From positions 248,001 through 312,000 of the forward strand of contig NZ_BOOQ01000002.1 of the NCBI RefSeq assembly GCF_016863315.1: 64,000 nt of DNA, read 5' to 3'. The notes below the pieces were generated by a model, which was given only the letters and a program-made list of their open reading frames with translations, made no database searches and was not told the DNA's origin. Below are positions 23,653 to 40,673 of this stretch, piece after piece. Numbering within the stretch: position 1 is the stretch's first letter; every line of letters starts with the position of its first letter. Source of the DNA: Planotetraspora silvatica. GTDB lineage: Bacteria; Actinomycetota; Actinomycetes; Streptosporangiales; Streptosporangiaceae. Made by a program: the position numbers and the translations under genes.

Positions 23653-23887
23653 GTGATCATGCACACATTCGGGATTGCCACCTCTGACCGGCCCTTTCCT
23701 CTCGCGTGATCATGCACGGATTCGGGAATCCCCCCATCCACCTGCGCGAACACGTCGCGTGATCATGCACACTTTCGGCAGCACACCCGCCCACCTGGGC
23801 GAACCCGCGACGCGATCATGCGCGGGTTCGGCGGGCGGCCCGCCCATCAGGGCGAACCCCTCACGTGATCACGCACGCATCCGGGCC
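23653..23887 (+). repeat. 53-bp tandem repeat array A
   Basis: Five units begin at 23653, 23706, 23759, 23812 and 23865, exactly 53 bp apart. Each starts with GTGATCATGCAC or a one- to two-base variant (GCGATCATGCGC, GTGATCACGCAC), continues into TTCGG and ends with a semi-conserved CC(A/C)CCTG(C/G)GCGAAC block. The TTCG and CGAA parts can pair within a unit; the fourth unit has long GGGTTCG/CGAACCC arms. The array fills the gap between pimB (start) and the metallopeptidase gene (stop). Confidence 0.9.
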
Positions 23888-23908
23888 GGGCACGCCGCGA
23901 CCGCGCGC

Positions 23909-24769
23909 TCACGAGCCGGCCACAGGACCGAGCTGCCGCACCACATAATCCCGCCACCCCTCGGTCAGGCCGGGAAGGGTCATGCCCAGCGTGTCCCTGA
24001 GGGCCGCCGTGACACCGGACCGCAGGGAGGCACGGTACAGGCCCACCAGCTCGGGTTCGCCGAACCGCTCGGCGATGTAGCGGCACATCAGCCACGCCTC
24101 CTCGTACGCCTGCGCGAGCCGTACCGACCCGGACTGGAACTCGGCGCGCCCGGGCAGCTCGCGCGGCGGAGTCCCGGCACGCACCTCCTCGGCGAGCTCG
24201 GCCGCGACGGTGCGCACGGGCAGGCCGGCGTCCAGATATCCGACGTAGTCGGCGAAACCCTCCACCAGCCAGGCCGGCATGTCTCCCGTGAGCGCCGCAC
24301 CTGTAGCGACATGGGTGAGTTCGTGAGTGAGCACCACCTGACGGCCGGTCCGGCTGAGCCGCCCGAAGCCGGACGGGTCGACGATGACGCGGCCCACCCC
24401 CGCGAACGCCGCGAATCCCTCGACGTGCGCGGGCGCCGCCAGCTCCGCGGCCTGCGCCTCCGTCGCGGGCACCAGCACGACCGCGTCGACCGGCCCCCAG
24501 ACCCTCGCGACCGTACGGCCGGCCCGGTCGGCGACCGCGGCGATCTCGGCGGCCTGCCGCGCCGAGCGGCCGATGACGATGGTGCGCTCTCCCCTGGCCA
24601 CGACCGCCTGCGCCCACATGCCGGGATGTTCCCGCACGATCGCCCGCGCCGTCGGCAACAGGGTGTCGGGCGCCGCGGCGGACGTCGGCCCCGCCACGGC
24701 GAACGCCACCAGGACGGCCGCCGGCACGAGTGCCGTCCTCGACCGTGCGTGAGCACGCATGCCGAGCAT
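23909..24769 (-). CDS. Secreted gluzincin-type metallopeptidase
   Basis: The 286-residue protein starts with a signal peptide (HARSRTALVPAAVLVAFAVAG, cut near TSAAA). The zinc motif HELTHVATGA is followed by WLVEGFADYVGY, where Glu in E-G-x-A-D is the third zinc ligand of gluzincins (M1/M61-like and basic secretory proteases). No C-terminal anchor is seen. The start at 24769 is the first Met; a second Met three codons later (24760) is equally possible. It is divergent from the MFS gene. The substrate is unknown. Confidence 0.82.
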   Translation of the reverse strand: MLGMRAHARSRTALVPAAVLVAFAVAGPTSAAAPDTLLPTARAIVREHPGMWAQAVVARGERTIVIGRSARQAAEIAAVADRAGRTVARVWGPVDAVVLVPATEAQAAELAAPAHVEGFAAFAGVGRVIVDPSGFGRLSRTGRQVVLTHELTHVATGAALTGDMPAWLVEGFADYVGYLDAGLPVRTVAAELAEEVRAGTPPRELPGRAEFQSGSVRLAQAYEEAWLMCRYIAERFGEPELVGLYRASLRSGVTAALRDTLGMTLPGLTEGWRDYVVRQLGPVAGS

Positions 24770-24956
24770 GGTATTGCCCCTGCCTGAGGGTTCACCGCCG
24801 TCCCGCGGCGGACGAGACGGCCGTCCGGCCCGGTACCCTTGATCCGTAAGGTGCGGCGAGCCACGTTCGGCGTGGTCTCGTGTCGGGATTTCCGGCCGGC
24901 ACGACGTCACCGCGATCGGTGGCGTCAAGTCTCTCGTCATAAGAGAGTTCTTCGCC

Positions 24957-26357
24957 ATGCCCGAAATCGGCACCTTTGTCCGCACCTCCCTCAGGTGGTG
25001 GATCTTCACCGTCATCCTGGTCGCGGACGTCCTCGATCTGCTGAGCACGACGGTCACCAACATCGTCGTGCCCTCCATCCTGCGCGACCTGCACGCTCCG
25101 CAGTCTCTGACGCCCTGGCTGGGGTCGGCGTACTCCCTGACGCTCGGCTCCGTCCTGGTGATCGGAGGCAGGATCGGCGACAGGTACGGCTACCGCAGGT
25201 CGTTCCTCATCGGCGGTGCGGGGTTCGCCGCCGCCTCGCTGCTGTGCGCGCTCGCCTGGAATCCGGCGTCCATCGTGGCCGCACGTCTCCTGCAGGGCGT
25301 GTTCGGCGCCCTGCTGATCCCGCAGGGCTTCAGCATCCTGCTTCGCGCCTTCCCCCGTGCGGAACTCGGCCGCGTCTTCGGCCTCTTCGGCCCGCTCATG
25401 GCCGTGGGCTCGATCAGCGGCCCGGTCGTCGCCGGCCTGCTGATCCAGGCGGACCCGCTCGGGCTCGGCTGGCGGGGCGTCTTCGTCGCCAACGCCGTGC
25501 TAGGTATCGCCGTGTTCCTCGCCGGCGCACGGGTCCTGCCTCGCGACCCGGGACGCCGGGCGGCGGTGATCGATCCGCTGGCGTCCGTCCTGCTGATGCT
25601 GGGAGTCCTCGGCGTGCTCGGTGGCCTCGTCCAGAGCGCGGGCCACGGATGGGACGCGCAACCGGTGCTCGCGCTCATCCTGGGCGTCGCGGGGCTGGCC
25701 CTGTTCACCCTGCACCAGCTTCGCAGCGACGACCCGCTGCTCGCCCCCTCGCTGTTCCGCGACCGGGGCTTCGTCACGGGTGTCCTGCTCGGCGCGCTGT
25801 TCTCCGCGGTCGTCGCGGGGCTGCTCTACGTCACCTCCCTGTATCTGCAGGACGGCCGGGGGCTGGCGCCGTCGCAGACCGCGGAGACGATGGCGCCCCT
25901 GTCCGTCGGCATCATCATCGCCTCGTTCTCGGCACGAGGGCTCATCGCGAGGCACGGCCGCCGGGTGGTGGCGGCAGGCCTCGCCCTGATCGGCGCGGGA
26001 GTGCTCTGCTACCTGACCCTTGTCGGCGCGGACGGGCGATCGATCTGGCCGCTGACCGCGCCGCTGTTCCTGTGCGGACTCGGAATGGGCTGCTGCTTCG
26101 GTTCGATCTTCGCCGTCGCACTCGGCGACGTCGGCGCGGAGCAGTCCGGCAGCGCCAGCGGGACGCTCAACGCCGTCCAGCAACTGTCCAACGCCGTCGG
26201 CGCGGCGGGCGTATCGACGATCTTTCTCGCCGTCGGCGCCGCCCACGGCATGCGTGCCGGCGTGTTCACCGTCCTGCTCGCCGTACTGGGCGTGATCGTC
26301 CTGTGCGGCCTGTGCCTGCCGCTACTCCCCCGCACCGCGGCGGCGGATCGGCACTGA
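24957..26357 (+). CDS. MFS exporter, EmrB/QacA-like
   Basis: The 466-residue transporter has about 14 helices. Motif A is seen in GGRIGDRYGYRRSFL and the motif C region in PLMAVGSISGPVVAGLLI; the N terminus WIFTVILVADVLDLLSTTVTNIVVP is typical of this group. The ATG is preceded by AAGAGAG. The substrate is unknown. A LysR gene follows 48 bases later on the same strand, so the two may share a transcript, and the LysR protein may also control this exporter. Confidence 0.87.
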   Translation: MPEIGTFVRTSLRWWIFTVILVADVLDLLSTTVTNIVVPSILRDLHAPQSLTPWLGSAYSLTLGSVLVIGGRIGDRYGYRRSFLIGGAGFAAASLLCALAWNPASIVAARLLQGVFGALLIPQGFSILLRAFPRAELGRVFGLFGPLMAVGSISGPVVAGLLIQADPLGLGWRGVFVANAVLGIAVFLAGARVLPRDPGRRAAVIDPLASVLLMLGVLGVLGGLVQSAGHGWDAQPVLALILGVAGLALFTLHQLRSDDPLLAPSLFRDRGFVTGVLLGALFSAVVAGLLYVTSLYLQDGRGLAPSQTAETMAPLSVGIIIASFSARGLIARHGRRVVAAGLALIGAGVLCYLTLVGADGRSIWPLTAPLFLCGLGMGCCFGSIFAVALGDVGAEQSGSASGTLNAVQQLSNAVGAAGVSTIFLAVGAAHGMRAGVFTVLLAVLGVIVLCGLCLPLLPRTAAADRH

Positions 26358-26405
26358 GTACGGAATGACCTAGACGCGGCGGCGGCGGACAGGCGATCCT
26401 GTGGC

Positions 26406-27374
26406 GTGTTGTTGCGCCAGTTGGAATATCTGGTCGCCCTGGCGAGGGAGCGGCACTTCGCCCGTGCCGCCGCCGCCTGCCATGTCTCGCAGCCGTCGTT
26501 GTCGGCCGCCATCCGCAAGCTCGAGCGCGAACTCGGCGTGCCTCTCGTACGGCGGGGCAGGCGGTTCGCCGGGCTCACCCCCGAAGGCGACCGCGTCCTG
26601 CTGTGGGCCCACCGCATCCTCGCCGAGTGCGACGGGCTGCGGGACGACCTGTCCATGATGCGCGAGAGCCTGTCGGGCACGCTGCGCATGGGCGCGATAC
26701 CGACGGCGCTGACGGCGGCCTCGCTGCTGACGACGCCGTTCTGCGAGCGCCACCCGCACGCCAGGGTCTCGTTGTCGTCGTTGTCCTCCCGGGAGATCAA
26801 CAGGCAGCTGACCGAGTTCGAGATCGACGTGGCGATGACGTACCTCGACGACGACGAACTCGGCGGCGTGCGCGCGAGCCCGCTGTACGAGGAGCGCTAC
26901 CTGCTGCTCACCCCGGACGACGGCGCGCTGGCCGGCCGGGACGTCGTCCGCTGGGCGGAGGTCGCCGCGCTGCCGCTGTGCCTGCTCGCCCCCGAGATGC
27001 GCAACAGGCGCATCCTGGACGGCATCTTCCACACCGCCGGTGCGGTGGCGGTGCCCGCCATCGAGACCGACACCGTCTCGGCCCTGTACGCCCATGTGGC
27101 CACGCACCGGTGGTCGAGTGTCATCGCGCACGCCTGGTTGCACATGTTCGGCGTGCCTGACGGCATGCGCGTCGTCCGGATGGAACAGCCGGTCCAGGCG
27201 CCACGGGTCGGGCTGGTGGTCGCGGACCGGAGCCCGGAACCGGTCCTCGCCACGGCGCTGCTGGACGTCACCCGCGGCCTCGACCTGCGCGACACCCTGG
27301 ATCGGCTGTTGCGCGACCACCTCACGCCGCTCCCGGTGGCCGTACCGCCGCAGGGACGCACGGAGAACTCATAG
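26406..27374 (+). CDS. LysR-family regulator adjacent to formate dehydrogenase
   Basis: The 322-residue protein has an N-terminal winged helix (LRQLEYLVALARERHFARAA, VSQPSLSAAIRKLERELGV) and a C-terminal periplasmic-binding-like effector domain (about 90-300). It starts at GTG 26406. LysR regulators usually bind dyads near the gene they control; a perfect 7-bp inverted repeat lies just past its stop codon, in front of formate dehydrogenase. This makes it the likely activator of that gene. The inducer may be formate or a one-carbon precursor, by inference. Confidence 0.88.
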   Translation: MLLRQLEYLVALARERHFARAAAACHVSQPSLSAAIRKLERELGVPLVRRGRRFAGLTPEGDRVLLWAHRILAECDGLRDDLSMMRESLSGTLRMGAIPTALTAASLLTTPFCERHPHARVSLSSLSSREINRQLTEFEIDVAMTYLDDDELGGVRASPLYEERYLLLTPDDGALAGRDVVRWAEVAALPLCLLAPEMRNRRILDGIFHTAGAVAVPAIETDTVSALYAHVATHRWSSVIAHAWLHMFGVPDGMRVVRMEQPVQAPRVGLVVADRSPEPVLATALLDVTRGLDLRDTLDRLLRDHLTPLPVAVPPQGRTENS

Positions 27375-27379
27375 AAGCG

Positions 27380-27397
27380 TCCTATCTCGCGATAGGA
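27380..27397 (+). promoter_or_regulatory. LysR-type operator before formate dehydrogenase
   Basis: TCCTATC-N4-GATAGGA is a perfect inverted repeat, 80 bases before the fdh ATG. The inner CTATC/GATAG has the LysR ATC...GAT character. TTGACG at 27407-27412 could be the -35 box, with GATGGT near 27431 as a weak -10. Confidence 0.6.
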
Positions 27398-27476
27398 ACT
27401 TTCGCTTTGACGTGCGGATATGCCCGCGCGGATGGTGGAGGCATCTGCCCCCCGTCCTCAATGAGGAGTCGACACC

Positions 27477-30177
<2,701 letters not shown>

Positions 30178-30194
30178 CCGGGCACGACGGAGAT

Positions 30195-30224
30195 CGCGTG
30201 CGGTGCCGGCCGGCCCCGCACGCG
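30195..30224 (+). terminator. Hairpin terminator of argG
   Basis: CGCGTGCGG (30195-30203) pairs with CCGCACGCG (30216-30224) around a 12-base loop, starting 17 bases after the argG stop. Confidence 0.6.
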
Positions 30225-30309
30225 AACCCGCGGGTGCCGCTCTTCAGGTCAAACAGGCTCATATCCCCCTATAGATGGAAATTATCCACTCAAGGGTAGA
30301 AATTCGCCC

Positions 30310-30381
30310 ATGATGGATGGAATCCACCAACCAGGCACGGCCCTTCTCGTCCGCACGCTCGCGGAACCGGTGATCCCATGA
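30310..30381 (+). CDS. Possible 23-residue leader peptide of the molybdo-enzyme gene
   Basis: A short frame starting ATGATGGATGG at 30310 encodes 23 residues (MMDGIHQPGTALLVRTLAE, then PVIP) and ends in a TGA that overlaps the next gene's ATG (ATGA at 30378-30381). No ribosome site is evident. It could be a coupled leader, or the tail of a lost upstream subunit gene, or chance. Confidence 0.25.
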   Translation: MMDGIHQPGTALLVRTLAEPVIP

Positions 30382-32462
30382 CACTCACGGGCACGCAGGC
30401 GGTCGGAGCGACCTTGACCCGGATCGAGGGGAGGGAGAAGGTCACCGGGACGGCCCGCTACGCGTTCGAGAACGCCCAGGACCGCGACACCGCCTACACC
30501 GTGCCGGTGCAGGCGGCCATCGCCCGGGGCTCGGTCGTCGCCGTCGACACCGACGCGGCGCTCACCCTGCCGGGCGTCATCGCGGTGATCTGGTACGGCA
30601 ACGCGCCCCGCCTGGGCCCTTCCGACGACCCCGAACTCGCCCTGTTCCAGTCGAACACGGTGGCGTACCGAGGACAGATCGTGGCGGCGGTGGTCGCGGA
30701 GACGATCGAGACGGCCCGCGAGGCGGCCGGCCAGGTGCGGATCGAGTACGCGCAGGAGCGGCACGACGTGGTCCTGCGGGTCGACGACCCCAAGATGTAC
30801 AAACCGTCGAAGGTGGCCCCCAACTACCCGACCGACACCGAGCTGGGCGACCCGGACTCGGCGCTGCGGGAGGCCGCCGTCAGCGTCGACCTGACGTACA
30901 CCACGCCTGCCCAGCACAACAACCCGATGGAGCCGCACGCGACGGTGGCCGTCTGGGAGAACGACGGCCTCACGCTGTACGACTCCAACCAGGGATCATC
31001 GGCGGTCCGCGACGTACTGGCCAGGCTGTTCGGGCTGCCCCCCGACCGGGTGCGCGTGATCGCACCCCACGTCGGCGGCGGCTTCGGCTCCAAGCTGGCG
31101 CCGCATCCGCCGGTGGTCCTCGCCGCCGTCGCCGCGAAGGTGAGCGGCCGGGCGGTGAAGGTCGCCATGACGCGGCAGCAGATGTTCTCCCTGGTGGGCT
31201 ACCGCACGCCGATCATCCAGCGGGTCCGCCTGGGCGCCGGCGGCGACGGCGGGCTGACGGCCGTCATCCACGACGCCTTCGAGCAGACCTCGACCGTCAG
31301 GGAGTTCGCCGAGCAGACGACGACCCCGACCCGCGTCATGTACGCGGCGCCCAACCGCCGGACGACTCACCGGCTGACGGCCCTCGACGTGCCCACCCCG
31401 ACCTTCATGCGAGCGCCCGGCGAGTGCCCGGGGATGTTCGCCCTGGAGTCGGCGATGGACGAACTGGCCATCGCCTGCGGGATGGACCCGATCGAGTTGC
31501 GCATCCGCAACGAACCCGCGACGGACCCGGAGAGTGGCCTGCCGTTCAGCTCGCGCAATCTCGTCGCCTGTCTGCGCGAGGGAGCGAGGCGGTTCGGGTG
31601 GGCGGACCGCGATCCTGCCCCCGGCGTGCGCAGAGACGGCCGCAGGCTGGTCGGGACCGGTGTGGCCGCCTCGACCTACCCCACCATCCGCCGCCCGTCC
31701 GAGGCCACGGCGCGTGCGGAGATCGACGGCCGTTTCACGGTGGGCGTCGCCGCCGCCGACATCGGCACGGGCGCTCGCACGGTGCTGACCCAGATCGCCG
31801 CCGACGCGCTACGCGCCCCTCTGGAGAAGGTGCGCGTGGAGGTCGGTGACAGCCGCCTGCCCACCGCGCCGATCGCCGGCGGGTCGATGGGCACCGCGTC
31901 CTGGGGCACGGCCGTCGTGCGGGCCTGCGAGGCCCTGCTGGAGGAGATCGACCGCCGGAACGGCACGCGGCCGATCGAGGTCCGCGTCAACACGGCCGAC
32001 GAGATCGCGGCGCAGCCTCGGCTCTCGCGGCACGCCTTCGGGGCGCAGTTCGCCGAGGCCGAGGTCGACATGGACACCGGTGAGGTACGGGTGTCCCGCC
32101 TGCTCGGCGTCTTCGGCGTCGGCCGGGTGATCAACCCGAAGACGGCGAGATCGCAGTTCATCGGCGGCATGACGATGGGAATCGGCATGGCGTTGATGGA
32201 GGAGAGCGTGATGGACGTGGAGTTCGGCGACTACCTCAACCACGACTTCGCCCAGTACCACATCGCGGCGTGCGCCGACGTGCCCGCCGTCGAGGCGTAC
32301 TGGATCGAGGAGGAGGACACGCGGATCAACCCGATGGGCTCCAAGGGCATCGGCGAGATCGGCATCGTCGGCACGGCCGCGGCCATCGCCAACGCGGTCC
32401 ACCACGCCACCGGCATCCGGGTGCGCGACCTGCCTATCCGCATCGACCGGCTGCTGCACTGA
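30378..32462 (+). CDS. Molybdopterin-binding subunit, xanthine dehydrogenase family (orphan)
   Basis: The 694-residue subunit has the aldehyde oxidase/xanthine dehydrogenase large-subunit layout: N-terminal hammerhead domain (RYAFENAQDRDTAY), molybdopterin-binding HVGGGFGSKLAPHP, the FMRAPGECPGMFALE segment and the active-site Glu in MGSKGIGEIGIVG. It resembles the YagR-type aldehyde/xanthine dehydrogenases; the CO dehydrogenase loop with Cys-Ser-Phe-Arg is absent. These enzymes need 2Fe-2S and FAD subunits, normally encoded directly upstream, but neither lies on either side. Either the partners are elsewhere or the enzyme is disabled. Only GGTGA precedes the ATG, consistent with former translational coupling. 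Confidence 0.88.
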   Translation: MTLTGTQAVGATLTRIEGREKVTGTARYAFENAQDRDTAYTVPVQAAIARGSVVAVDTDAALTLPGVIAVIWYGNAPRLGPSDDPELALFQSNTVAYRGQIVAAVVAETIETAREAAGQVRIEYAQERHDVVLRVDDPKMYKPSKVAPNYPTDTELGDPDSALREAAVSVDLTYTTPAQHNNPMEPHATVAVWENDGLTLYDSNQGSSAVRDVLARLFGLPPDRVRVIAPHVGGGFGSKLAPHPPVVLAAVAAKVSGRAVKVAMTRQQMFSLVGYRTPIIQRVRLGAGGDGGLTAVIHDAFEQTSTVREFAEQTTTPTRVMYAAPNRRTTHRLTALDVPTPTFMRAPGECPGMFALESAMDELAIACGMDPIELRIRNEPATDPESGLPFSSRNLVACLREGARRFGWADRDPAPGVRRDGRRLVGTGVAASTYPTIRRPSEATARAEIDGRFTVGVAAADIGTGARTVLTQIAADALRAPLEKVRVEVGDSRLPTAPIAGGSMGTASWGTAVVRACEALLEEIDRRNGTRPIEVRVNTADEIAAQPRLSRHAFGAQFAEAEVDMDTGEVRVSRLLGVFGVGRVINPKTARSQFIGGMTMGIGMALMEESVMDVEFGDYLNHDFAQYHIAACADVPAVEAYWIEEEDTRINPMGSKGIGEIGIVGTAAAIANAVHHATGIRVRDLPIRIDRLLH

Positions 32463-32490
32463 ACCGCCGGTGCGCCTCGGGGTCGACCTT

Positions 32491-32544: not shown

Positions 32545-32564
32545 GACGTGCAGGACGCATCTGT

Positions 32565-32936
32565 CTAGGGTTGCTTGAGGCGGAGCGCTTCCTTGCGGGC
32601 CTCGGCCTGGATGGACCGCTCGCGCTCCAGCCACGCCGGGTCCTCCGCCTTCAGCGCATCGATCTCAGCGGTGGTGAGCGGACCGGTGATCCCGCCTCTG
32701 ATCAGGCCGGAAGTGGAGATCCTGAGCTTCGCGGCGATGACCTGCTTGGGGTGCGGGCCGTTGCGACGCAGGTCGGCGAGCCAGGCGGGCGGCGTCGACT
32801 GCAACTCGTTCAGCTCGTCCCTGGAGACGACACCCTCCTGGAACTCGGCGGGAGTGGCCGAGAGGAGGACACCCAGCTTCTTGGCCGCGGTCGCGGGCTT
32901 CATCGTCTGGATGGTCTTTGGTTTGGGCGAACTCAT
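32565..32936 (-). CDS. DUF5997 family protein
   Basis: The 123-residue protein belongs to a small actinobacterial family of unknown function. It has a basic N terminus (PKPKTIQTMKPATAAKKLGV), a middle SRDELNELQSTPPAWLADLRRNG and a segment HPKQVIAAKLRISTSGLIRG that could be a helix-turn-helix-like recognition unit (my reading, untested). It is divergent from the HTH-less LysR-type gene with only 55 bases between start codons. TACTCT lies 7 bases before its ATG, implying a leaderless message. Confidence 0.85.
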   Translation of the reverse strand: MSSPKPKTIQTMKPATAAKKLGVLLSATPAEFQEGVVSRDELNELQSTPPAWLADLRRNGPHPKQVIAAKLRISTSGLIRGGITGPLTTAEIDALKAEDPAWLERERSIQAEARKEALRLKQP

Positions 32937-32979
32937 GGCGCCAAGAGTAGTCAGTCGGAACGGGATCCCCTGACATCGC

Positions 32980-32985
32980 TACCCT
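32980..32985 (+). promoter_or_regulatory. -10 element of the LysR-effector-domain gene
   Basis: TACCCT ends 6 bases before the GTG at 32992, placing transcription start on the start codon. A matching TACTCT (32949-32944, minus strand) serves DUF5997, so both divergent genes appear leaderless. Confidence 0.5.
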
Positions 32986-32991
32986 GAGGCG

Positions 32992-33720
32992 GTGACTGAT
33001 GGAGAGACCGGCAGGGTGTTTCGGCTGGCGTACGTGCCCGGGGTGACACCCGCGAAATGGGTCAGCACCTGGACCGAGAGGATGCCCGGCGTGCCGGTCA
33101 CCCTCGTCGCGGTTCCCGCCGCCGAGGTGGTGGGACTCCTGCGGAACGGCGGCGCCGACGCCGGATTCGTCAGGCTGCCGGTCGACCGGGACGGGCTCAG
33201 CGTGATCCCCCTCTACGTGGAGACCACGGTGGTCGTGGTGCCCAAGGACCATGCGGCGGCCGCGGCCGACGAGGTGGCCGTCGCCGACCTCATCGACGAG
33301 GAGGTGTTCCATCCTCTGGACGACACCATCGAGTGGACGGTCCGGCCCGGGGTGCCCGCGTTCACCCGCCCGGCGACAACGGCGGACGCGGTCGAACTGG
33401 TGGCGACCGGCGCTGGGGTTCTCCTGGTTCCGCAGTCGCTGGCGCGCCTCCACCACCGCAGGAGTCTCACTTACCGGCCGGTGCCGGACGCGCCGCAGTC
33501 TCAGGTCGCGCTGACCTGGCCAACGGACGCGACGACTGACCTGGTGGAAGAATTCATCGGCATCGTCCGCGGCCGGACAGTGAACAGCTCGCGGGGCCGT
33601 ACCCCCGCCGCCCCTGCGGAGAAACCGGCACAGCGGCAGGCACAGAAACCCGCACAGATCAGCTCCGGTCGCCGGGCCGCGCCGGCCGGCCGTAAAAGCA
33701 AGGGCCGCCGGCCTCGGTGA
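32992..33720 (+). CDS. LysR effector-binding domain protein without DNA-binding domain
   Basis: The 242-residue protein consists of a periplasmic-binding-like LysR substrate domain (residues 8-190: FRLAYVPGVTPAKWVSTWTE, GGADAGFVRLPVDRDGLSV, VVVPKDHAAA, GAGVLLVPQSLARLHHR) and a basic disordered tail (about 195-242, many Lys/Arg/Ala/Pro). The N-terminal winged helix of true LysR regulators is absent and no fragment of it lies upstream. The protein probably senses a small ligand and acts through a partner; the divergent DUF5997 protein is the natural candidate. The basic tail may bind nucleic acid. Confidence 0.85.
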   Translation: MTDGETGRVFRLAYVPGVTPAKWVSTWTERMPGVPVTLVAVPAAEVVGLLRNGGADAGFVRLPVDRDGLSVIPLYVETTVVVVPKDHAAAAADEVAVADLIDEEVFHPLDDTIEWTVRPGVPAFTRPATTADAVELVATGAGVLLVPQSLARLHHRRSLTYRPVPDAPQSQVALTWPTDATTDLVEEFIGIVRGRTVNSSRGRTPAAPAEKPAQRQAQKPAQISSGRRAAPAGRKSKGRRPR

Positions 33721-33754
33721 GCCGCTCTCGGACATCCGTCACGAACGGGTCCCC

Positions 33755-33806
33755 TTTCTCAGTGGAGATGTCCAGAAGGACAAGCCGCGGACACCTCCAC
33801 TGAGAA
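33755..33806. terminator. Long hairpin related to the one at 32491, convergent junction
   Basis: TTCTCAGTGGAGATGTCC (ends 33773) pairs with GGACACCTCCACTGAGAA (33789-33806) with one mismatch and a 15-base loop. It lies between the LysR-effector gene and the NlpC/P60 gene, whose stop codons face each other, and likely terminates both. Confidence 0.82.
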
Positions 33807-33835
33807 GAGGTCATCTTTTCTGAGCACCTACAGGT

Positions 33836-34354
33836 CTACAGACCCGGCCGAACCGCTCCCACGAACGTCTGCTTGCGGTAGGAGTTCAGCTTGTCGATCC
33901 GGACCCGCGAACCGGAGTGCGGCGAGTGGATCATCTTGCCGTGCCCGACGTACATGCCCACGTGGCCGCCGCCGCTGGTGAAGATCAGGTCACCGATCTT
34001 GAAGTGTCCCCAGGAGACCTTCTTCTTGACGGCCTTGCGCATGGAGTAGGTCGTACGCGGCAGTTTCACGCCCGCCTTGCGCCAGGCGTATTTCACCAGA
34101 CCCGAGCAGTCGAACGCGTGAGGTCCGGCGGCTCCCCAGCGGTACGGGTCGCCGATGTGCTTCTTCGCGGTTGAGATGGCCCGCCTGGCCTTGGACTGCT
34201 GCAGGGCGGCCCTGCTCAGCTTCTTCTTGACGGTCTTCGTGGAGGCCGTGGTGGCGGTCGTCGTGACCGTCGCCGTGGCCACCTTCGCGGCCGTCGCCGT
34301 CTGGGCCGACGCCGGTTGTACGGAGAAGGCTCCGACGGAGGCTGTCAGCGCCAC
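33836..34354 (-). CDS. Secreted NlpC/P60 peptidoglycan hydrolase
   Basis: The catalytic domain (last ~120 residues) has HAFDCSGLVKYAW (Cys nucleophile), GGGHVGMYVG (His) and HSPHSG, the gamma-D-Glu-diamino-acid endopeptidase triad pattern that cuts stem peptides of peptidoglycan. A Thr/Ala/Lys-rich linker precedes it. From GTG 34354 the export signal is short (LTASVGAFSVQPASA). Upstream in frame, at 34408-34355, lies LSRRALVSLGGVA with a Ser-Arg-Arg motif that completes a Tat-like signal, preceded by AGGAG and a CTG codon; the true start may be there. The gene follows a c-di-AMP riboswitch. Confidence 0.9.
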   Translation of the reverse strand: MALTASVGAFSVQPASAQTATAAKVATATVTTTATTASTKTVKKKLSRAALQQSKARRAISTAKKHIGDPYRWGAAGPHAFDCSGLVKYAWRKAGVKLPRTTYSMRKAVKKKVSWGHFKIGDLIFTSGGGHVGMYVGHGKMIHSPHSGSRVRIDKLNSYRKQTFVGAVRPGL

Positions 34355-34432
34355 GCCCCCGAGGGAGACGAGGGCACGACGGGACAGACGTACGGGGGTG
34401 CTGGACAGGATCTCTCCTACGGTCTTCCACTT

Positions 34433-34570
34433 GCGCCTACCGGGTTAGCTGACGGATTCGGGCAGGGAAGTCGCCCTACGGCGCAAATCGCGCCGATTCA
34501 CCCCGGACCTTCATCGAAGGTCGAATGGTTCCCCGGCTCCGTGCCTCCTGACTGCACGGACTCGGCAGGT
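34433..34570 (-). ncRNA. ydaO/yuaA-type c-di-AMP riboswitch
   Basis: On the minus strand the leader contains the conserved blocks GCCGGGGAACCA (34527-34538 region), GGGGTGAATCGG (about 34493-34504), GTAGGGCGACTTCCC and CAGCTAACCCGGTAGGCG (ends near 34433). Their order and spacing match the actinobacterial ydaO class, which binds cyclic di-AMP and turns off cell-wall hydrolase genes such as rpfA. It ends about 25 bases before the NlpC/P60 ribosome site. Exact ends are approximate. Confidence 0.88.
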
Positions 34571-34689
34571 CACCGCCGCCGGCGGGCCCCGCAGGGCCCA
34601 GGCGTGATTCAGTCGATGGCGACGGCGACGCATGGATGGCTGTTCCGGAATCGGCTCACCGATCCCGGCGACGTGCATGGCGTGCTCGT

Positions 34690-34830
34690 CGCGACGCCAG
34701 AAGCTATCCATTGATCGCGCGATTCGGCAAAGCGAACACAAGAAAATGGAGATCGACTTTTACTGATCACGAAAGTAAAACTGCTGGATATCTAATGGAT
34801 ATCTACGCTAAATGTGACTCTGCTCACACT
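34690..34830 (-). promoter_or_regulatory. AT-rich control region with a CRP-type site upstream of the riboswitch
   Basis: TGTGACTCTGCTCACA at 34813-34828 is a perfect TGTGA-N6-TCACA site for the cAMP receptor protein family. The surrounding 34700-34860 is much richer in A+T than its neighbours and includes a direct repeat of GGATATCTA at 34786 and 34796. It is the probable promoter zone of the riboswitch-controlled hydrolase. Half sites GTCACA/GTCACACC follow at 34855-34880. Confidence 0.6.
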
Positions 34831-35197
34831 TAATAAAACAAATGCTGAACGACGTCACATCAGTAACATTGGTCACACCAGTTAGCGATCTTCAACGGCC
34901 GTCCGGGTTCGGTCGAGCCGGCCGGGCGACCCCAGTCGAGGACCGGTCGGGGCCCGGCGGCGAAGCGCTCCAACCCACGACGACGGGCGACGGCAGCGAG
35001 ACGGCTCCGGTCAGCCCATACCTAAGCGGCATACATGCCCGTACGGCATGCCCGGCCACGAGGAGGACCGGTGGACGTGCAACGCGCGTGGCACGTACCG
35101 GGCCCCGGACAGCCGAATCGCGCCGAGGACGCCCTCGACGCGATTCCCTGGTCACCATCGGCGTACGGCCCGCCGCACCGCACGCGGAACGAGTCCC

Positions 35198-35368
35198 GTG
35201 CATGATCACAAGAGGCGAACACCCTGGTCGCGGGCGCTACCCGCGAACGTGCGCATGATCACGGTTGGCGAAACCGCAGCCCACGGGCCGCATCTCCGAA
35301 CCTGTGCATGATCACGCTCGACGGGAGGCCGGTTCAGGGATGCCTTCCACGAAGGTGTGCATGATCAC
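35198..35368 (-). repeat. 53-bp tandem repeat array B
   Basis: The complement of the core, GTGCATGATCAC, begins at 35198, 35251 (GCGCATGATCAC), 35304 and 35357, exactly 53 bp apart, so the core reads on the minus strand. Each core is followed (minus strand) by A-C/G-G/C-TTCG. A degenerate fifth position may exist near 35145. The array ends 20 bases past the stop codon of the NlpC/P60 coiled-coil gene. The rest of 34870-35190 shows no gene. Confidence 0.9.
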
Positions 35369-35387
35369 GCGGGAGGGGGCGGGGGGG

Positions 35388-36353
35388 TCAGGGGCGGACC
35401 GCGCCGGCGAGGCTGCCATAGGCGGAGAGGCTGACGACCTTCACGACGTCGCCCGTCTGGGGCGCGTGCACGACCTTGCCGCCGCCCGCGTAGATGCCGA
35501 CGTGACCGAAGCCGGGGTGGAAGAGCAGGTCGCCGGGCTGGAGCTTGCTGGTCGACACCCGGCGGTTCGCTCCCCACGACCACATCTCGTAGGTCGTCCG
35601 CGGCAGGCTCACCCCGGCGGCCCTCCAGGCCGCCTGTACGAGGCCTGAGCAGTCCCACGAGCCCGGGCCGGTGGCGCCGTACTGGTAGGGCTTGCCGACC
35701 TGCTTGTACGCGAACTGAAGGGCGGTCAGGGCGTTGCCCGACGCCGAGCCGGTGTAGGTGATGCCGGCGCTCTTGGTGTTGCCGACGTTGTAGGCGCCGA
35801 GCCTCTTCAGCAGCGCCTTCTGGTCCTTGACGAGCTTCTCCGCGTCCGCCTTCTTCTTCGCGAGGTCGGACTTGGTCTGGTTGGCCTCGTCGTAGGCCGC
35901 CTTCTGCTGGTCCCTCTTGTTCTTGAGCCCCTGGATCGCGGCCTCGTACTCCGCGAGTTGCTTCGCCCGGCCCTGCGACAGCTGGTCGAGCGCGGCCATG
36001 CCGCTGAGCGCCGACTCGGGGTCGGAGCCGTAGAAGACGCCTCCCAGCATCGAGACGTCGCCCGTCTGGTAGGTGTTCACGGCGATCGAGACGACCGTCT
36101 GCCGGAGCACGTCGACCTGGGAGTACTGCTTCTGGTAGTCGTCGTTGACGCTGTCGTACTTCTTCCTGGCCTTCTTCCACTTCTCGTTGGCCGCGTTGTA
36201 GTCGTCAACGATCTTGTCGGCCTTGGAGTTCAGCGTCTTCAGCTTGGCCTGAGCCTGAGCGATTGTGGGTTTTGGATCCGCCTGCGCACTTGTCATCGGC
36301 AACAGCAGGACCGCGGCGGCCAATCCAGTGGCCACCGGTACACGCCCTCGCAT
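35388..36353 (-). CDS. Secreted coiled-coil NlpC/P60 endopeptidase (RipA-like)
   Basis: The 321-residue protein has a signal peptide (VPVATGLAAAVLLLPMTSAQA), a long coiled-coil region (residues 30-195, heptad-rich, e.g. KLKTLNSKADKIVDDYNAA) and a C-terminal NlpC/P60 domain with WDCSGLVQAAW (Cys), GFGHVGIYAGGG (His) and HAPQTG. Proteins of this plan cleave peptidoglycan stem peptides during division; the coiled coil often regulates access. A TAGGGT -10 (minus strand, 36378-36373) and GAGGGAG precede the start. Its own leader lacks the c-di-AMP riboswitch seen upstream of the neighbouring hydrolase. Confidence 0.92.
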   Translation of the reverse strand: MRGRVPVATGLAAAVLLLPMTSAQADPKPTIAQAQAKLKTLNSKADKIVDDYNAANEKWKKARKKYDSVNDDYQKQYSQVDVLRQTVVSIAVNTYQTGDVSMLGGVFYGSDPESALSGMAALDQLSQGRAKQLAEYEAAIQGLKNKRDQQKAAYDEANQTKSDLAKKKADAEKLVKDQKALLKRLGAYNVGNTKSAGITYTGSASGNALTALQFAYKQVGKPYQYGATGPGSWDCSGLVQAAWRAAGVSLPRTTYEMWSWGANRRVSTSKLQPGDLLFHPGFGHVGIYAGGGKVVHAPQTGDVVKVVSLSAYGSLAGAVRP

Positions 36354-36560
36354 CGAGGCTCCCTCGGGATAGACCCTAACCGGCGGGCGCGACTCTACTG
36401 GGGCGATCTTGGAGCTTCAACCTATTCGCAGCTATTCACGGCAATCGTCACTGATTGCGACATAAATCGTCCGAAGGGTGACCAGCGGCACGGTCCAATC
36501 CCGCGCGCCCTCCCAGAGGGGCCCGATCAGGTCCGATCGGGCCCTCTCCCGGGCGGCCGA

Positions 36561-37877
36561 TCAGGTCCGGCCGAGACGGCGCAGCAGGAGGGTCGACGGT
36601 ACGGGACGGGCACCCATCCGCCGCACGGACTCGGCCACCTCGCGGTCGGACGACACGACCGCGATCGCCCTCCCCGAGGGCTCGGCGCGCACCAGGCGCC
36701 GGATGAGATCGTCGGCGATCTCTCCCGGCGCGCTGAACATCACCCGGACGCCACGCGGCGCGGAGACATGGACGGGGCCGTTCAGCTCGGCGCCGTCGAA
36801 GACGCATGTCACCTCGACCCGCGCCTGCACGGCGAGGCCGCCGAGCCCGGTGAGTATCCGGGACCGCTGGTCGGCCAGGGTGAGCGACGGGTACCCCGTC
36901 TTGGTCACGTTGTAGCCGTCGATGATCAGATGCAGGTTGGGTATCGCCAGCAACTGGTCGAGCAGCTGGGGGTCGTCGTTGGCCAGCGCCCTGGCGGGGA
37001 CCGCGCCCACCCCCGGCTCGCCGGGCTTCACCCCGGTGACGTAGTCGGCCGGCCGGGTGATCGAGGTGGGCAGGGCGAGCTCCTTGCGCAACCCGGCGGC
37101 CGCGTCCTGGAGAGCGTCCATGAGCACGCGGATGCGGGTGTCCTCGACACTGCGGCCCTCGCGCGCCGCACGCCGGCCCTCCTCGAGGTGGCTCTCCGCC
37201 TCCGCGAGACGCTCCTTCAGCCTGCGCAGCTCGGTCTCGGCCGCGCCGCTCGCGCCGGCGGCCCTGCTCGTCGCCTCGGCGGTCTCCGCCTGCAGCTCGG
37301 CAGCCCTGGCCTCGGCGGCCCTGACGCGCTCGCGGGCGTCGTGCAGCTTGCGCCGCAGCTCCGCGTTCTCGGACCGGGCGGACCTGAGCTGCTCGCGGAC
37401 CCGCTCGATCTCTTCCTTGGCCGTCGCCCGGTGGGCCGCGAGCTGCTCGCGCAGCCGCACCTCCGCCTGCTCCCGCTGGGACCCGGCGGCCGCCGCCTGC
37501 TCGAGGTCGGCCCGCGCCAGCTCCACCAGGTCGGGCCAGCCCGGCGGCCGGGTCAGATAGGCCGCGGCCGCCACCATCACCGGCTCGGCCGCGGGCGGCA
37601 CCGTCCCCTCGGCGAGGGCGGCCACCAGCTCGGGCCAGGCCTCCTGGAGCGTCTCCGCGACCAGCTCGCGGAACTCCTTGTCGTTCTCCAACTGCGCGGC
37701 GATCGGGGCGCTGCCGAGCCGGGCGCGCTTGCGCGGGTCGAACTTGGCGATCCCCCGCAACGGTCCCGGAACCGTGGCCGCGGACATGGAGCCGAGCACC
37801 TGGGCCGCGAGCTCCACCACCTGTAACCGGACCTGTTCAGGCAACGGACGAGACAGGCCCTCTCCGGCTGAACTCAT
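36561..37877 (-). CDS. NYN-domain (YacP-like) RNA-associated protein with coiled coil
   Basis: The 438-residue protein has an N-terminal helical region, a coiled coil of about 130 residues (150-280, e.g. REQLRSARSENAELRRKL) and a C-terminal NYN/PIN-like nuclease domain (about 310-435). The PIN acidic residues are present in LIIDGYNVTKTG, TCVFDGAEL, GEIADDLIRRLV and VSSDREVAE. YacP (Rae1) in Bacillus is a ribosome-associated mRNase, so an RNase role is a family-level inference. The gene stands alone; upstream lies a short IR-flanked segment. Confidence 0.87.
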   Translation of the reverse strand: MSSAGEGLSRPLPEQVRLQVVELAAQVLGSMSAATVPGPLRGIAKFDPRKRARLGSAPIAAQLENDKEFRELVAETLQEAWPELVAALAEGTVPPAAEPVMVAAAAYLTRPPGWPDLVELARADLEQAAAAGSQREQAEVRLREQLAAHRATAKEEIERVREQLRSARSENAELRRKLHDARERVRAAEARAAELQAETAEATSRAAGASGAAETELRRLKERLAEAESHLEEGRRAAREGRSVEDTRIRVLMDALQDAAAGLRKELALPTSITRPADYVTGVKPGEPGVGAVPARALANDDPQLLDQLLAIPNLHLIIDGYNVTKTGYPSLTLADQRSRILTGLGGLAVQARVEVTCVFDGAELNGPVHVSAPRGVRVMFSAPGEIADDLIRRLVRAEPSGRAIAVVSSDREVAESVRRMGARPVPSTLLLRRLGRT

Positions 37878-38008
37878 CCTGCCGCTCCTTGTACTTGTCC
37901 TTTCGTCAAGGGTACGGCTGACGCGCCCCTGTCCGAGTCGCCTCGTCGAGTCGGCCCGCCCGCGACCGCCACCTCCTCCCCGGCCGCGAAGCGCACTAAT
38001 CTACGTTG

Positions 38009-38240
38009 TTCAAGTAGGAAATATATGGATATGCTGCATCAATCGAGCCGGGCATATCGCCCGTACGATGGATCTCAAGGAACAAGACGACATAGCATGC
38101 GACCTACCTCGACGTCGTCCGCCAGCGCCGCCGCGAGGTCGTCCGCCACGGCGAGCCGGCGGGTCGTGCCCGCGGACCACTCGGTGAAAGTGGGCGTCAT
38201 CGTCAGAGATCTTCCGTAAAGTTCCTAATTCCTACCTGAA
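38009..38240. repeat. Segment bounded by 12-bp inverted repeats
   Basis: TTCAAGTAGGAA (38009-38020) faces TTCCTACCTGAA (38229-38240) with one mismatch. They enclose 208 bases carrying a 41-codon minus-strand frame. TAGGAA is repeated (TAGGAATTAGGAA on the minus strand), so the arms may be paired protein-binding sites, or the ends of a small inserted element. Confidence 0.45.
38075..38200 (-). CDS. Possible 41-residue hypothetical protein (or truncated gene)
   Basis: An ATG at 38200 opens a frame of 41 codons with coding-like composition: FTEWSAGTTRRLAVADDLAA, then LADDVEVGRMLCRLVP. GGAAG precedes the start by about 10 bases. It lies inside the IR-bounded segment. I recognise no family; it could be the surviving 5' end of a longer gene. 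Confidence 0.35.
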   Translation of the reverse strand: MTPTFTEWSAGTTRRLAVADDLAAALADDVEVGRMLCRLVP

Positions 38241-38334
38241 TGCCGCAAATATAGCGGTGTCGCATTCGCGGGGGCTGTGGCGCCTTCCCCGGGCGGGGCG
38301 GGCGCGCCAATTGTCGGTCGGAGTCCCTAAGGTC

Positions 38335-40065
38335 ATGGCCGTGGACGCGGTACAGGGCACCCTGGACGAGCTCGGCACTCCCCTGCGAGAGGTCACGTTC
38401 GTGGTCTTCGACCTGGAGACCACGGGCGGGTCGGCCGCCGAGCACGCGATCACCGAGATCGGCGCGGTCAAGGTGCGCGGCGGCGAGGTGGTGGGCGAGT
38501 TCGCGACCCTCGTCGACCCGGGCGGCCCGATCCCCCCGTTCATCTCCGTGCTCACGGGCATCACCGACGCGATGGTGCTGGCCGCCCCGCCGTTCTCCCA
38601 GGTCCTGCCGAGCTTTCTGGAGTTCGCCAAAGGGGCGGCGCTGGTCGCCCACAACGCGCCCTTCGACATGTCGTTCATCCGCGCCGCCTGCGCGACCGGC
38701 GGATACCCGCCGCCGGCCAACCCGATCGTCGACACCGCCGACCTCGCGCGGCGTGTGCTGACCCGCGACGAGACGCCCAACTGCAAGCTGGGCACGCTGG
38801 CCCGGCTGTTCCGCAGCACCACCGAGCCGTGCCACCGGGCGCTCGCCGACGCCAAGGCCACCGTCGACGTCCTGCACGGGCTCATCGCCCGGGTCGGCTC
38901 GCTCGGGGTTCACACGCTGGAGGAGCTGCGGAGCTTCGCCAGGACCCCCACGCCCGAGCAGCAACGCAAGCGCCACCTCGCCGAGGGGGTTCCCAGCGCC
39001 CCGGGCGTGTACGTCTTCGAGGACACGCGGGGCGAGGCCCTCTACATCGGCAAGAGCTCCAACCTGCGCAACCGCGTCCGCAGCTACTTCACGGCGAGCG
39101 AGACGCGTTCCCGGATCCGCGAGATGGTCGGCATCGCCGAGCGGGTCAGGACGATCGTGTGCGCCACGGGGCTGGAGGCCGAGATCCGCGAGCTGAGGAT
39201 GATCGGCTCCACCAAGCCCCGCTACAACAAGAGATCCCGTTTCCCCGAGCGCGCGGTGTGGCTCAAACTCACCAACGAGCCGTTTCCCCGGCTCAGCATC
39301 GTGCGGGAGGTCAAGGACGACGGCGCCACCTATCTCGGGCCGTTCGGGAGCAGCCGCGCCGCCGACGACGCCAGGACGGCCATGCACGAGGCGCTGCCGC
39401 TGCGCCAGTGCACCGAGCGGCTCTCCTCCCGGATCCGGCGCAGCGCCTGCACGCTCGCCGAGCTCGGCCGGTGTGGAGCCCCGTGCGAGGGCCGCGAGAG
39501 TGAGGACGCCTACGCGCGGCACGTCCGCGGCGCCAAGAAGGCCATGGAGCACGACTCGGAGGCGGTCTTCTCCGCGCTGGAGGCCCGCATGCGGCGCCTG
39601 TCCACCGAGCAGCGATACGAGGAGGCCGCCGTCGACCGGGACCGGCTCGCGGTCTACATCAGGACGGCGGCGCGCATGCAGCGGCTGAGATCGCTCACGG
39701 CCATCTCCCAGATGGTGGCGGCGAGCCCGGCCTTCGACGGCGGCTGGGACATCCACGTGATCCGGTACGGCAGGCTCGCCGCCGCCGGGGTGATGCCGCG
39801 GGGCGCGCATCCCACGCCCTATGTGGACGCGCTGGTGGCCACCGCGGAGACGGTCACGCCCGGGCCGGGGCCCACCCCCGCCGCCAGCGCGGAGGAGACC
39901 GAGTGCGTCCTGCGCTGGCTGGACTCCCCCGGCGTCAGGCTGGTCCAGGTCGACGGCACCTGGAGCGTCCCCGCGTACGGCGCGGGCCGGCTCAGGGACC
40001 GGATCGAGCGCGCCTACCAGGGACTGCATCCACACCAGCCACGTGAGGGCAGGCCGCTGCGATGA
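38335..40065 (+). CDS. DnaQ-like DEDDh exonuclease fused to UvrC-type GIY-YIG domain
   Basis: Residues ~15-190 form a DEDDh 3'-5' exonuclease (VFDLETTGGSAAEHAITEIGAV, LVAHNAPFDMSF, HRALADAKATVDVL). Residues ~215-300 form a UvrC-like GIY-YIG nuclease (GVYVFEDTRGEALYIGKSSNLRNRV; the second Tyr is in the YIG), followed by ARCGAPCEG-like cysteines (LAELGRCGAPCEG) and a UVR-type helix (YEEAAVDRDRLAVYI). The UvrC C-terminal endonuclease and HhH modules are missing. The fusion is known in actinobacteria and is presumed to act in DNA repair. ATG 38335 (AAGG upstream) is preferred over an in-frame ATG at 38257. 576 residues. Confidence 0.9.
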   Translation: MAVDAVQGTLDELGTPLREVTFVVFDLETTGGSAAEHAITEIGAVKVRGGEVVGEFATLVDPGGPIPPFISVLTGITDAMVLAAPPFSQVLPSFLEFAKGAALVAHNAPFDMSFIRAACATGGYPPPANPIVDTADLARRVLTRDETPNCKLGTLARLFRSTTEPCHRALADAKATVDVLHGLIARVGSLGVHTLEELRSFARTPTPEQQRKRHLAEGVPSAPGVYVFEDTRGEALYIGKSSNLRNRVRSYFTASETRSRIREMVGIAERVRTIVCATGLEAEIRELRMIGSTKPRYNKRSRFPERAVWLKLTNEPFPRLSIVREVKDDGATYLGPFGSSRAADDARTAMHEALPLRQCTERLSSRIRRSACTLAELGRCGAPCEGRESEDAYARHVRGAKKAMEHDSEAVFSALEARMRRLSTEQRYEEAAVDRDRLAVYIRTAARMQRLRSLTAISQMVAASPAFDGGWDIHVIRYGRLAAAGVMPRGAHPTPYVDALVATAETVTPGPGPTPAASAEETECVLRWLDSPGVRLVQVDGTWSVPAYGAGRLRDRIERAYQGLHPHQPREGRPLR

Positions 40066-40116
40066 CGCTAGGGTCGGGGGCATAGCCGTACTCGCCACAA
40101 AGCAGGAGAGACCCGA

Positions 40117-40404
40117 ATGGTCACCGCGATCGTGCACATCAAGGCCGATGTCCACCGGATCCCCGAGGTCGCCCAGACCATCGCCGAGATCGATGGTGTC
40201 AGCGAGGTCTATTCGATCACCGGCGAGTTCGACCTGCTGGCCATGGTCCGGGTCGAGCGGTACGAGGAGATCGCCGAGGTGATCCCCGGCCGGGTCAACA
40301 AGGTGCCCGGCGTGACCCACACCGAGACGCACATCGCCTTCCGGACGTACTCCCGTCACGACCTGGAGGCCGCCTTCGCCATCGGCCTAGGCGAATCCGA
40401 CTGA
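40117..40404 (+). CDS. Lrp/AsnC ligand-binding (RAM) domain protein lacking DNA-binding domain
   Basis: The 95-residue protein covers only the RAM effector domain: IVHIKADVHRIPEVAQTIAE, VSEVYSITGEFDLLAMVRV and VNKVPGVTHTETHIAF. Without the winged helix it should form oligomers and bind amino acids, possibly tuning full-length Lrp/AsnC proteins. AGGAGAG lies 6-7 bases before the ATG, and TAGGGT at 40069-40074 is a -10 candidate. A 53-bp repeat array begins 24 bases after the stop. Confidence 0.9.
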   Translation: MVTAIVHIKADVHRIPEVAQTIAEIDGVSEVYSITGEFDLLAMVRVERYEEIAEVIPGRVNKVPGVTHTETHIAFRTYSRHDLEAAFAIGLGESD

Positions 40405-40427
40405 CCCCCCCAAAAAACCCCTCCAGC

Positions 40428-40673
40428 GTGATCATGCACAGGTTCGGCGGCACCCCCGCCGACCTGCGCCTCCGCATGCCGTGATCATGCACAGGTTCGC
40501 CGACATGCCTCTGACCTGCACCTTCTCGTGGCGTGATCATGCACAGACTCGACAGCGGGCCCGCCGACCTGCGCGGACATTGTCCGTGATCATGCACAGA
40601 CTCGACCGCAGGCCCACCGACCTGCATGAACGCCATTTGTGATCATGCACGCCCAGATCATGTGATCATGCGC
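40428..40673 (+). repeat. 53-bp tandem repeat array C
   Basis: GTGATCATGCAC begins at 40428, 40481, 40533, 40586 and 40639 (spacing 53, 52, 53, 53); a truncated sixth core GTGATCATGCGC follows at 40662. The first four units share GTGATCATGCACAG(G/A)(T/C)TCG and a middle CCG(C/A)CGACCTGC block; unit five is cut after 23 bp. The array lies between the convergent RAM-domain and trpD genes. Confidence 0.92.

Follow-up and report, generated by a model that had tools for sequence, protein, structure and literature searches.

To our knowledge, the short repeats of bacteria that have an enzyme of their own are those served by tyrosine (HUH) transposases. In papers on these REPtrons (RAYT/TnpA-REP proteins with repetitive extragenic palindromes, REP, or with REPIN; also TIRtrons), a vertically inherited, single-copy enzyme gene is flanked by its own repeats, many further copies of which are dispersed between genes, mainly in convergent and co-directional gaps; the enzyme is specific for its repeat, and the repeats are commoner where the gene is present (PMC8049555, PMC3733652, PMC8266576). 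We describe here a probable system sharing several of these features in the soil actinobacterium Planotetraspora silvatica (genome G000). The window, a stretch of 64,000 nucleotides (contig NZ_BOOQ01000002.1, positions 248,001 to 312,000), holds three intergenic arrays of a 53-bp repeat. They are likely to be dispersed sites of a REPtron-like system, the enzyme of which would be a nuclease with an AbiEi winged helix and a Vsr/EDxHD-type domain.

The architecture of this system is that of REPtrons, and it would act as one of them, yet it lies outside the family; no shared component was found. The probable enzyme is an AbiEi plus Vsr/EDxHD nuclease and not an HUH tyrosine transposase. No GTAG or CGTC tag is present: the unit starts with C-GTGATCATGCAC, and the palindromes found in other lineages start with the core, not with a tag. 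Finally, the Planotetraspora repeat is a non-palindromic unit in a tandem array phased at 53 bp. The rule that repeats are fewer where the gene is missing holds in one Planotetraspora (G003) and in 15 Microbispora, and does not hold in G062, G054 and G086.

The P. silvatica genome (8.66 Mb, 117 contigs) contains 698 exact GTGATCATGCAC cores, 360 on one strand and 338 on the other, and no copy of the reversed string. An initial annotation of the window had kept open that the arrays were local chance expansions; the core turned out to be enriched genome-wide, with the 53-bp spacing outside the window as well. Arrays were surveyed in detail over 708 kb (the 628 kb of contig 2 and 80 kb of contig 1), with gene calls made by a purpose-written script, and cores less than 45 bp from the preceding one were skipped in the count of phasing and polarity. 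Thirty-three arms of at least three units each were found, grouped in 22 regions, and every exact core lay within a cluster of at least three. The step was 53 bp in 102 cases among 108, and 52 bp in the other six. Half of the regions (11/22) have a single arm; where exact cores on opposite strands are consecutive and within 400 bp, they point towards one another in all 11 cases. The unit consensus reads C-GTGATCATGCAC-AGGTTCGG ... CTGACCTGCGC ... AC-CC, and the semi-conserved blocks first seen in the window were found again, with TTCG occupying positions 15-18 of the unit and GACCTGCGC approximately positions 33-41.

The candidate enzyme was identified from its place between arrays. In genome G396, four plus-strand and three minus-strand cores enclose one gene, and in G484 three plus and two minus cores do so, the neighbours of the two enclosed genes being different. 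In P. thailandica a 35-36% identical protein is encoded between two arms, and the P. silvatica gene lies outside the window (Table 1). A profile (A1) of three seed proteins, picked for their position between core arrays, was searched against 23 chosen genomes, 18 with cores or arrays and 5 Microbispora without. It gave 13 strong homologues (E <= 1e-75) from four actinobacterial families, and all 13 have cores on both sides (10 out of 10 if the three seeds are left out), in the form of opposed arms in 11 and of inverted pairs on each side in two Actinomadura. Each of these 13 genomes has one array-flanked copy. As a control for chance, none of the 642 called genes in the 708 kb of P. silvatica lies between opposed arms. 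Among the 16 remaining homologue loci, 15 have no array (one, L260, has a stray one-mismatch core), and the sixteenth is a shortened gene with arrays on both sides, in G086. A second search over 16 genomes added a gene with cores on both sides in G319 (2.6e-43), and a search of the phylum (346 genomes, E <= 1e-45, six candidates scored per genome) brought no further array-flanked gene. In G086 (L259/L278) the nuclease match is restricted to the N-terminal part, the flanking arrays are kept, and 114 tandem pairs are present genome-wide. The idea that arms are transposon ends carrying a cargo was also considered and given up: the frames read between separated arms are diverse (by our reading a translation-factor-type GTPase, a dehydrogenase-like protein and others), one of them, in P. 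thailandica, being the nuclease.

Eight residues, E192, D224, E235, D237, H242, D251, R254 and R255, are invariant in the 13 homologues, and are candidates for an active site of the EDxHD type. In Pfam (E <= 0.1), the Vsr-type restriction endonuclease family PF18741 matches 13 members out of 13, with a score above the curated cut-off for the first member and below it for P0001 and P0002, and AbiEi_1 matches 9. At the same threshold no transposase family appeared among the 13, and the only matches were to MTES_1575, AbiEi and DUF559, plus three chance-like ones of one member each. Three AbiEi models of PADLOC match all 13. An AlphaFold2 model of the array nuclease (predicted local distance difference test, 88.4) was compared with known structures using Foldseek, and the only matches at E <= 0.001 were two chains of AbiEi 6y8q (best 1.2e-6), the AbiEi fold spanning about the first 200 residues. 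Weak matches were found to the catalytic domain of I-Bth0305I (3r3p, TM score 0.75 by target length, E 0.13) and to Vsr (1cw0, E 0.18). The array nuclease is thus probably an AbiEi-type DNA-binding domain fused to a Vsr/EDxHD nuclease resembling those of homing endonucleases.

Both halves can be compared with described systems. The AbiEi fold, as judged from Foldseek and PADLOC, is that of the AbiE type IV toxin-antitoxin, whose AbiEi proteins, according to PMC7319586, bind inverted repeats at their own promoter. Unlike AbiE, the array nuclease is fused to a nuclease domain and its sites are genome-wide; in four Planotetraspora, no AbiEii (DUF1814) toxin gene was noticed beside it, no family search having been run on the neighbours. 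A sink or addiction module could be imagined on this model, in which the nuclease is toxin-like, the many sites titrate it or protect the cell, and site loss is harmful. Promoter binding by AbiEi antitoxins, the PADLOC matches and the presence of arrays upstream of the gene as well would agree with it. We hold it very improbable, given that array genomes without the gene exist, that G028 has the gene with few sites, and that no further gene was seen between the nuclease and its neighbours at four Planotetraspora loci. As to the other half, I-Bth0305I dimerises on a target of nearly 60 bp, according to a passage of PMC3943268, a length close to the 53-bp unit, and it is this EDxHD homing endonuclease that the C-terminal fold weakly matches. 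Here, in contrast, there is no intron or phage setting, the position of the gene is stable across the compared genomes, and the sites devoid of it number in the hundreds. The single flanked copy in each of 13 genomes and the absence of genes between opposed arms in the 708 kb surveyed (0/642) speak against a gene copying itself into cut sites, as far as sequences can tell.

In the four Planotetraspora examined, the neighbours of the nuclease gene are by our reading a GDP-mannose-dehydratase-like and a P450-like gene. Planotetraspora and Microbispora (three gene-bearing Microbispora) share neighbouring DNA on both sides of the gene, and by this comparison of flanks the gene is inherited in place within both genera. 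G484 (L245) and G278 (L250), which belong to different families, have about 790 bp beside the nuclease in common, at 81.5% identity, with a clpX-like gene by reading. This common flank suggests a very old common position.

The fate of arrays in the absence of the gene can be followed in two genera. All 15 Microbispora sampled (genus g65) were tested at E <= 1e-15: three have gene and arrays (112, 37 and 27 pairs), two have arrays without the gene (16 and 3 pairs), ten have neither, and none has the gene without arrays (Fisher p 0.022). In the Planotetraspora G003, the gene junction is found without the gene, with a single one-mismatch core. At 12 orthologous array loci, retained from 400 kb fetched after ten other regions without an anchor were dropped, G003 has 20 cores (<=1 mismatch) vs 63 in P. 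silvatica. Its array loci are mostly shorter, not only mutated. We conclude from this comparison of sequences that arrays are shorter and fewer in this Planotetraspora, which is without the gene.

Turnover of the arrays was examined against P. mira (G002), a sister species that has the gene. The 13 anchored array regions are all present both ways, nine P. silvatica regions being without an anchor in the compared stretch, and the two species have 81 cores each at these loci. Identity within orthologous units is 98.5% for the core (positions -1 to 9) and 83.4% for the spacers. Of the 33 arms, 30 have a perfect outermost core and 12 a perfect innermost one (permutation p 2e-4). A spacer identity of at least 65% is reached by 3.0% of the pairs of adjacent units, by 5.2% of those taken from opposite arms and by 0.2% of those taken from different loci. 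This polarity and the likeness of spacers suggest local copying, with the inner units oldest. Of the self-propagating element that had been proposed from the window, one part is retained, as arrays are tied to a nuclease gene that is itself flanked by like arrays, and one part is lost, as 13 positions out of 13 are common to two species and no recent jumping is seen. The proposal is thus supported in a modified form, that of arrays which would undergo local turnover. Some neighbouring units do look alike, as functionless local expansions would, and yet 698 exact copies, the 53-bp phase and one enzyme family linked to the repeat across four bacterial families make chance expansion practically negligible.

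The 22 array regions occupy 10 convergent, 11 co-directional and 1 divergent gap, vs 40, 152 and 80 among the 272 gaps of at least 100 bp. For 24 of the 33 arms the closest gene beyond the first core is on the same strand, and for 9 it is on the opposite one, so that transcription direction is not the rule. Such a placement, together with the strict phasing and the core being better conserved than the spacers, could also reflect a host-selected binding array: a domesticated DNA-binding factor, with arrays that end or insulate transcription or organise the chromosome, each site being under purifying selection and the nuclease activity being irrelevant or lost. We regard this as unlikely. The nuclease-type residues are invariant in 13 homologues out of 13; 10 of the 15 sampled Microbispora do without arrays, which is odd for a needed host function; both arm orientations occur in co-directional gaps; and shortening, rather than mutation only, is what most G003 loci have undergone.

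The REPtron-like system that we favour probably works as follows. The AbiEi domain would recognise CGTGATCATGCAC together with a tail that differs between lineages; binding would be cooperative and on a single helix face. Bound units would be spaced by whole turns, 53 bp being about 5 turns and the 41 bp found in another genome about 4. The nuclease domain would nick or cut at or beside the bound units, and repair from neighbouring or opposite-arm units would copy the motif; arrays would thereby be maintained, and would grow mainly at the gene-proximal end. Binding to a site of about 20 bp at whole-turn spacing, with cutting and repair, would explain the phasing, the local copying and the shrinkage after gene loss. 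The gene-side arrays may also set expression of the nuclease gene. Elsewhere, arrays would be tolerated or useful in gene ends and other gaps without divergent promoters, and hosts may accept or retain them because they help to terminate transcription where genes end. Among the readings offered at the outset, cooperative protein binding is favoured by the phasing, the conserved core and the absence of pairing covariation described below.

Several observations weigh against this scheme. In G028 a strong homologue (2e-111) is accompanied by one core pair on a single side, and the genome contains six exact cores in all. In the second search, run with profiles A1 and A2, up to 25 first-look candidates were left unscored in 10 of the 16 genomes, which makes absences slightly less certain. 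Tandem pairs are present in six genomes where no intact associated gene was found, G062 (370), G086 (114, with the shortened gene), G054 (102), G003 (94), G037 (25) and G193 (16), and a strict dependence of arrays on the gene is not shown. Recent loss or assembly gaps may explain some of these; at the P450-side junction of G062, one perfect core and a fragment of an IS4/5-type (DUF4096) transposase are found. G003 is more distant from P. silvatica than P. mira is (flank identity 78-96% vs 84-99%), so part of its core loss is plain divergence. A control at eight loci, counting exact cores (G001 26, P. silvatica 28, G003 7), pairs the G001 loci by listing order and offset, not by alignment. The polarity is uneven: in one of three printed alignments (of 13), the units that P. 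mira has in excess are at the outer ends, and in another the unit missing in P. mira is the inner-end one. At the 13 loci compared with P. mira no gain or loss of an array was found, and copying to new places was not seen. Finally, conservation of the core can also result from host selection.

Beyond Planotetraspora, the exact core is present in 167 of 250 genomes of the family, mostly in 0-6 copies, and a degenerate tandem pattern in 19 of the 250, spread over nine of 68 genera. The carriers are five Planotetraspora, G062, 5 of the 15 Microbispora, two genomes of g34, G054, two of g50, and three chance-like single matches; G054 arrays have 41-bp steps and the word GTGATCTTGCA or GTGATCATGCA. 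In class-wide samples, an exact 53-bp pair was found in 3 of 394 genomes (P. silvatica, G337 and G396), and 7 of 296 genomes, P. silvatica among them, have palindromes whose stem is specific to the family. Exact 11-mers number 413 in G278, 328 in G337, 106 in G484 and 90 in G396. Over 160 kb of G278, the 25 exact cores are all within 2 mismatches of GTGATCATGCAATCCCGCCAC, and six of them adjoin the nuclease gene; likewise, the tail of the gene-side cores recurs at other listed copies in G396, G337 and Microbispora, and partly in G484. DNA uptake sequences (DUS, or uptake signal sequences, USS) are also short invariant words with lineage dialects, often in inverted pairs at gene ends. The core resembles them in being such a word with dialects, and differs in that its exact copies are all clustered by three or more in the surveyed 708 kb and that its cognate gene is flanked by copies. 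In Actinomadura (L254, L255, L080, L082), successive cores point in alternate directions, at distances of about 30 and 57 bp, and form no phased tandem arms, an arrangement that recalls bacterial interspersed mosaic elements (BIMEs), the mosaic elements of REPs. A phage origin was looked into and rejected: six viral-contig stretches fitted the tandem pattern, of which the five inspected were unrelated repeats of lower GC (the sixth is L094), and viral contigs scanned for palindromes gave no hit. A tandem repeat of 43 bp, near-perfect, on a Myxococcales contig (L115) and a candidate on a Lapidilactobacillus contig (L178, judged from its listing) were set aside as unrelated.

In families f28, f30, f31 and f40, the core sits in palindromes, and with a rough gene filter, among the 15 palindrome loci read in families other than that of the window, 9 are no more than 30 bp from the end or start of a called gene and 7 are placed between convergent called genes. 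These loci, and the AGGT and ACCT blocks of the unit consensus, which could pair, are what a structured RNA or a transcription-terminator hairpin would call for. The hairpin between TTCG and CGAA drawn from the window sequence, and a structured RNA as the nature of the 53-bp unit, are however not supported by the units themselves: in 258 non-redundant units no covariation of long-range Watson-Crick pairs was detected, high mutual information being confined to neighbouring or near-neighbouring bases, and Rfam gave no match at the arrays at gathering thresholds. Single-arm arrays, half of the regions, are moreover incapable of a two-arm hairpin. We consider hairpins extremely unlikely for this unit, and the absence of pairing covariation indicates DNA recognition rather than a folded RNA.

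Some paralogs without core arrays have repeats of their own. At 13 of 34 such homologue loci, a word of at least 14 bp recurs inverted on the opposite side of the gene, a count made without a shuffled control. Close reading of 12 of these loci, picked for long words, showed inverted pairs on either side of the gene in six, opposed 21-bp tandem arrays in one, a single inverted copy per side in four, and an unconvincing case in one (L265). The word CAGAGAAGTGGGGCA is common to the paralogs of G396 and G484, with 25 and 13 copies (<=1 mismatch), four of them beside each gene; 18 copies in G396 and 12 in G484 form inverted pairs with a distance of 31 bp. Four other genomes are without this word, and P. 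silvatica has two copies, a number equal to the control. For the repeat of a G278 paralog, a scan of 160 kb at up to 3 mismatches finds four more copies, vs none for scrambled controls. In G278 also, at L315 (about 9990-10300) and L318 (about 14810-15060), the GTGATCATGCA family is mixed with AGAATGCTGGGTTG, the repeat of another nuclease of the family, as if repeats attracted one another. In G379 (L289, 1434-1476 and 2441-2504), opposed tandem arrays of CCCAAACCGTTGACCGTGCGT stand on either side of a paralog gene, with a unit of 21 bp that corresponds to about two turns of the helix.

These data leave about even chances to a wider proposal, that the AbiEi plus Vsr/EDxHD nucleases of Actinobacteria form a general class of repeat keepers, many paralogs having their own gene-flanking and sometimes genome-spread repeat, maintained and homogenised by cutting and repair-copying, the Planotetraspora arrays being the most elaborate case here. 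Some results go the other way: the word of the G379 paralog, in Mycobacteriaceae, is found at the gene only (100 kb), and that of G388 is absent (120 kb). Of 15 phylum-search loci (without P. silvatica and G278; probably Mycobacteriaceae), 3 have an inverted word of at least 14 bp and 7 have none of at least 10 bp, and the flanking-repeat rule is therefore not universal. In G053 and G092, scans at up to 5 mismatches were not above scrambled controls; in G053, two copies (<=1 mismatch) do lie away from the gene, and a shorter word is found at five places (<=2 mismatches, 102 kb).

In the window itself, a scan at up to 2 mismatches finds 27 core matches, vs a mean of 4.4 and a maximum of 11 in 100 shuffles, and the 15 array cores of the initial annotation are recovered at its positions, with ten full steps of 53 bp and one of 52 (Table 1). 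It had placed the arrays next to gene ends. This is right for array B, whose first core is 19 bp past the stop of an NlpC/P60 gene, and for array C, which starts 23 bp past the stop of an Lrp/AsnC-type gene and sits between convergent genes; array A, whose first core is 12 bp upstream of where a minus-strand gene starts, breaks the rule by its orientation. At the orthologous positions, P. mira has an array for A, four cores for B and four for C, and G003 has two cores (<=1 mismatch, vs four in P. silvatica), two and none. The window also contains a cyclic di-AMP (ydaO/yuaA) riboswitch, which scores 82 bits (gathering score, 38) and lies about 65 bp upstream of a second NlpC/P60 gene.

Table 1. 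Coordinates of arrays, adjoining genes and other features (window positions unless a contig is given).
Feature	Position	Strand	Core starts	Remarks
Array A	23653..23876	+	23653, 23706, 23759, 23812, 23865	Five cores, 53-bp steps; mismatches 0,0,0,2,1 in order; <=2-mismatch core scan
Array B	35198..35368	-	35198, 35251, 35304, 35357	Four cores, 53-bp steps; <=2-mismatch core scan
Array C	40428..40673	+	40428, 40481, 40533, 40586, 40639, 40662	Six cores, steps 53, 52, 53, 53, 23 bp; <=2-mismatch core scan
Array nuclease gene	about G000:C26:7771-8739			Outside window; product of 322 aa; four + cores on one side, three - cores on the other, 53-bp steps
Glycosyltransferase gene	22486-23640	-		Neighbour of array A
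Peptidase_MA_2 protein gene	23909-24727	-		Neighbour of array A
NlpC/P60 gene	35388-36323	-		Next to array B
Lrp/AsnC-type gene	40117-40404			Next to array C
Second gene at array C	40867-41910	-		Convergent
Cyclic di-AMP riboswitch	34419-34577	-		
Second NlpC/P60 gene	33836-34354			Downstream of riboswitch

Searching the literature for the core string gave, judged by title among the matches listed, no relevant open-licence paper besides a table of predicted ArgR sites in PMC5839063; one of these sites, in S. coelicolor, contains the 12-mer, which we judged a coincidence. Among the matches listed, no open-licence paper joining these nuclease families to palindromic repeats was noticed either. 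As far as we found, with partial coverage of the literature, this partnership of repeat and enzyme has no earlier description. If it is true, a nuclease unrelated to the HUH transposases plays a REPtron-like role, meaning that such partnerships arose more than once, and a function would be found for some members of a large family of Actinobacteria (DUF559/MTES_1575 with AbiEi) that is as yet uncharacterised. A protein reading a site of about 20 bp at a 53-bp phase would also be a useful DNA-binding tool. The natural cases of gene loss, in G003, G062 and Microbispora, make it directly testable how repeat populations persist in bacteria.

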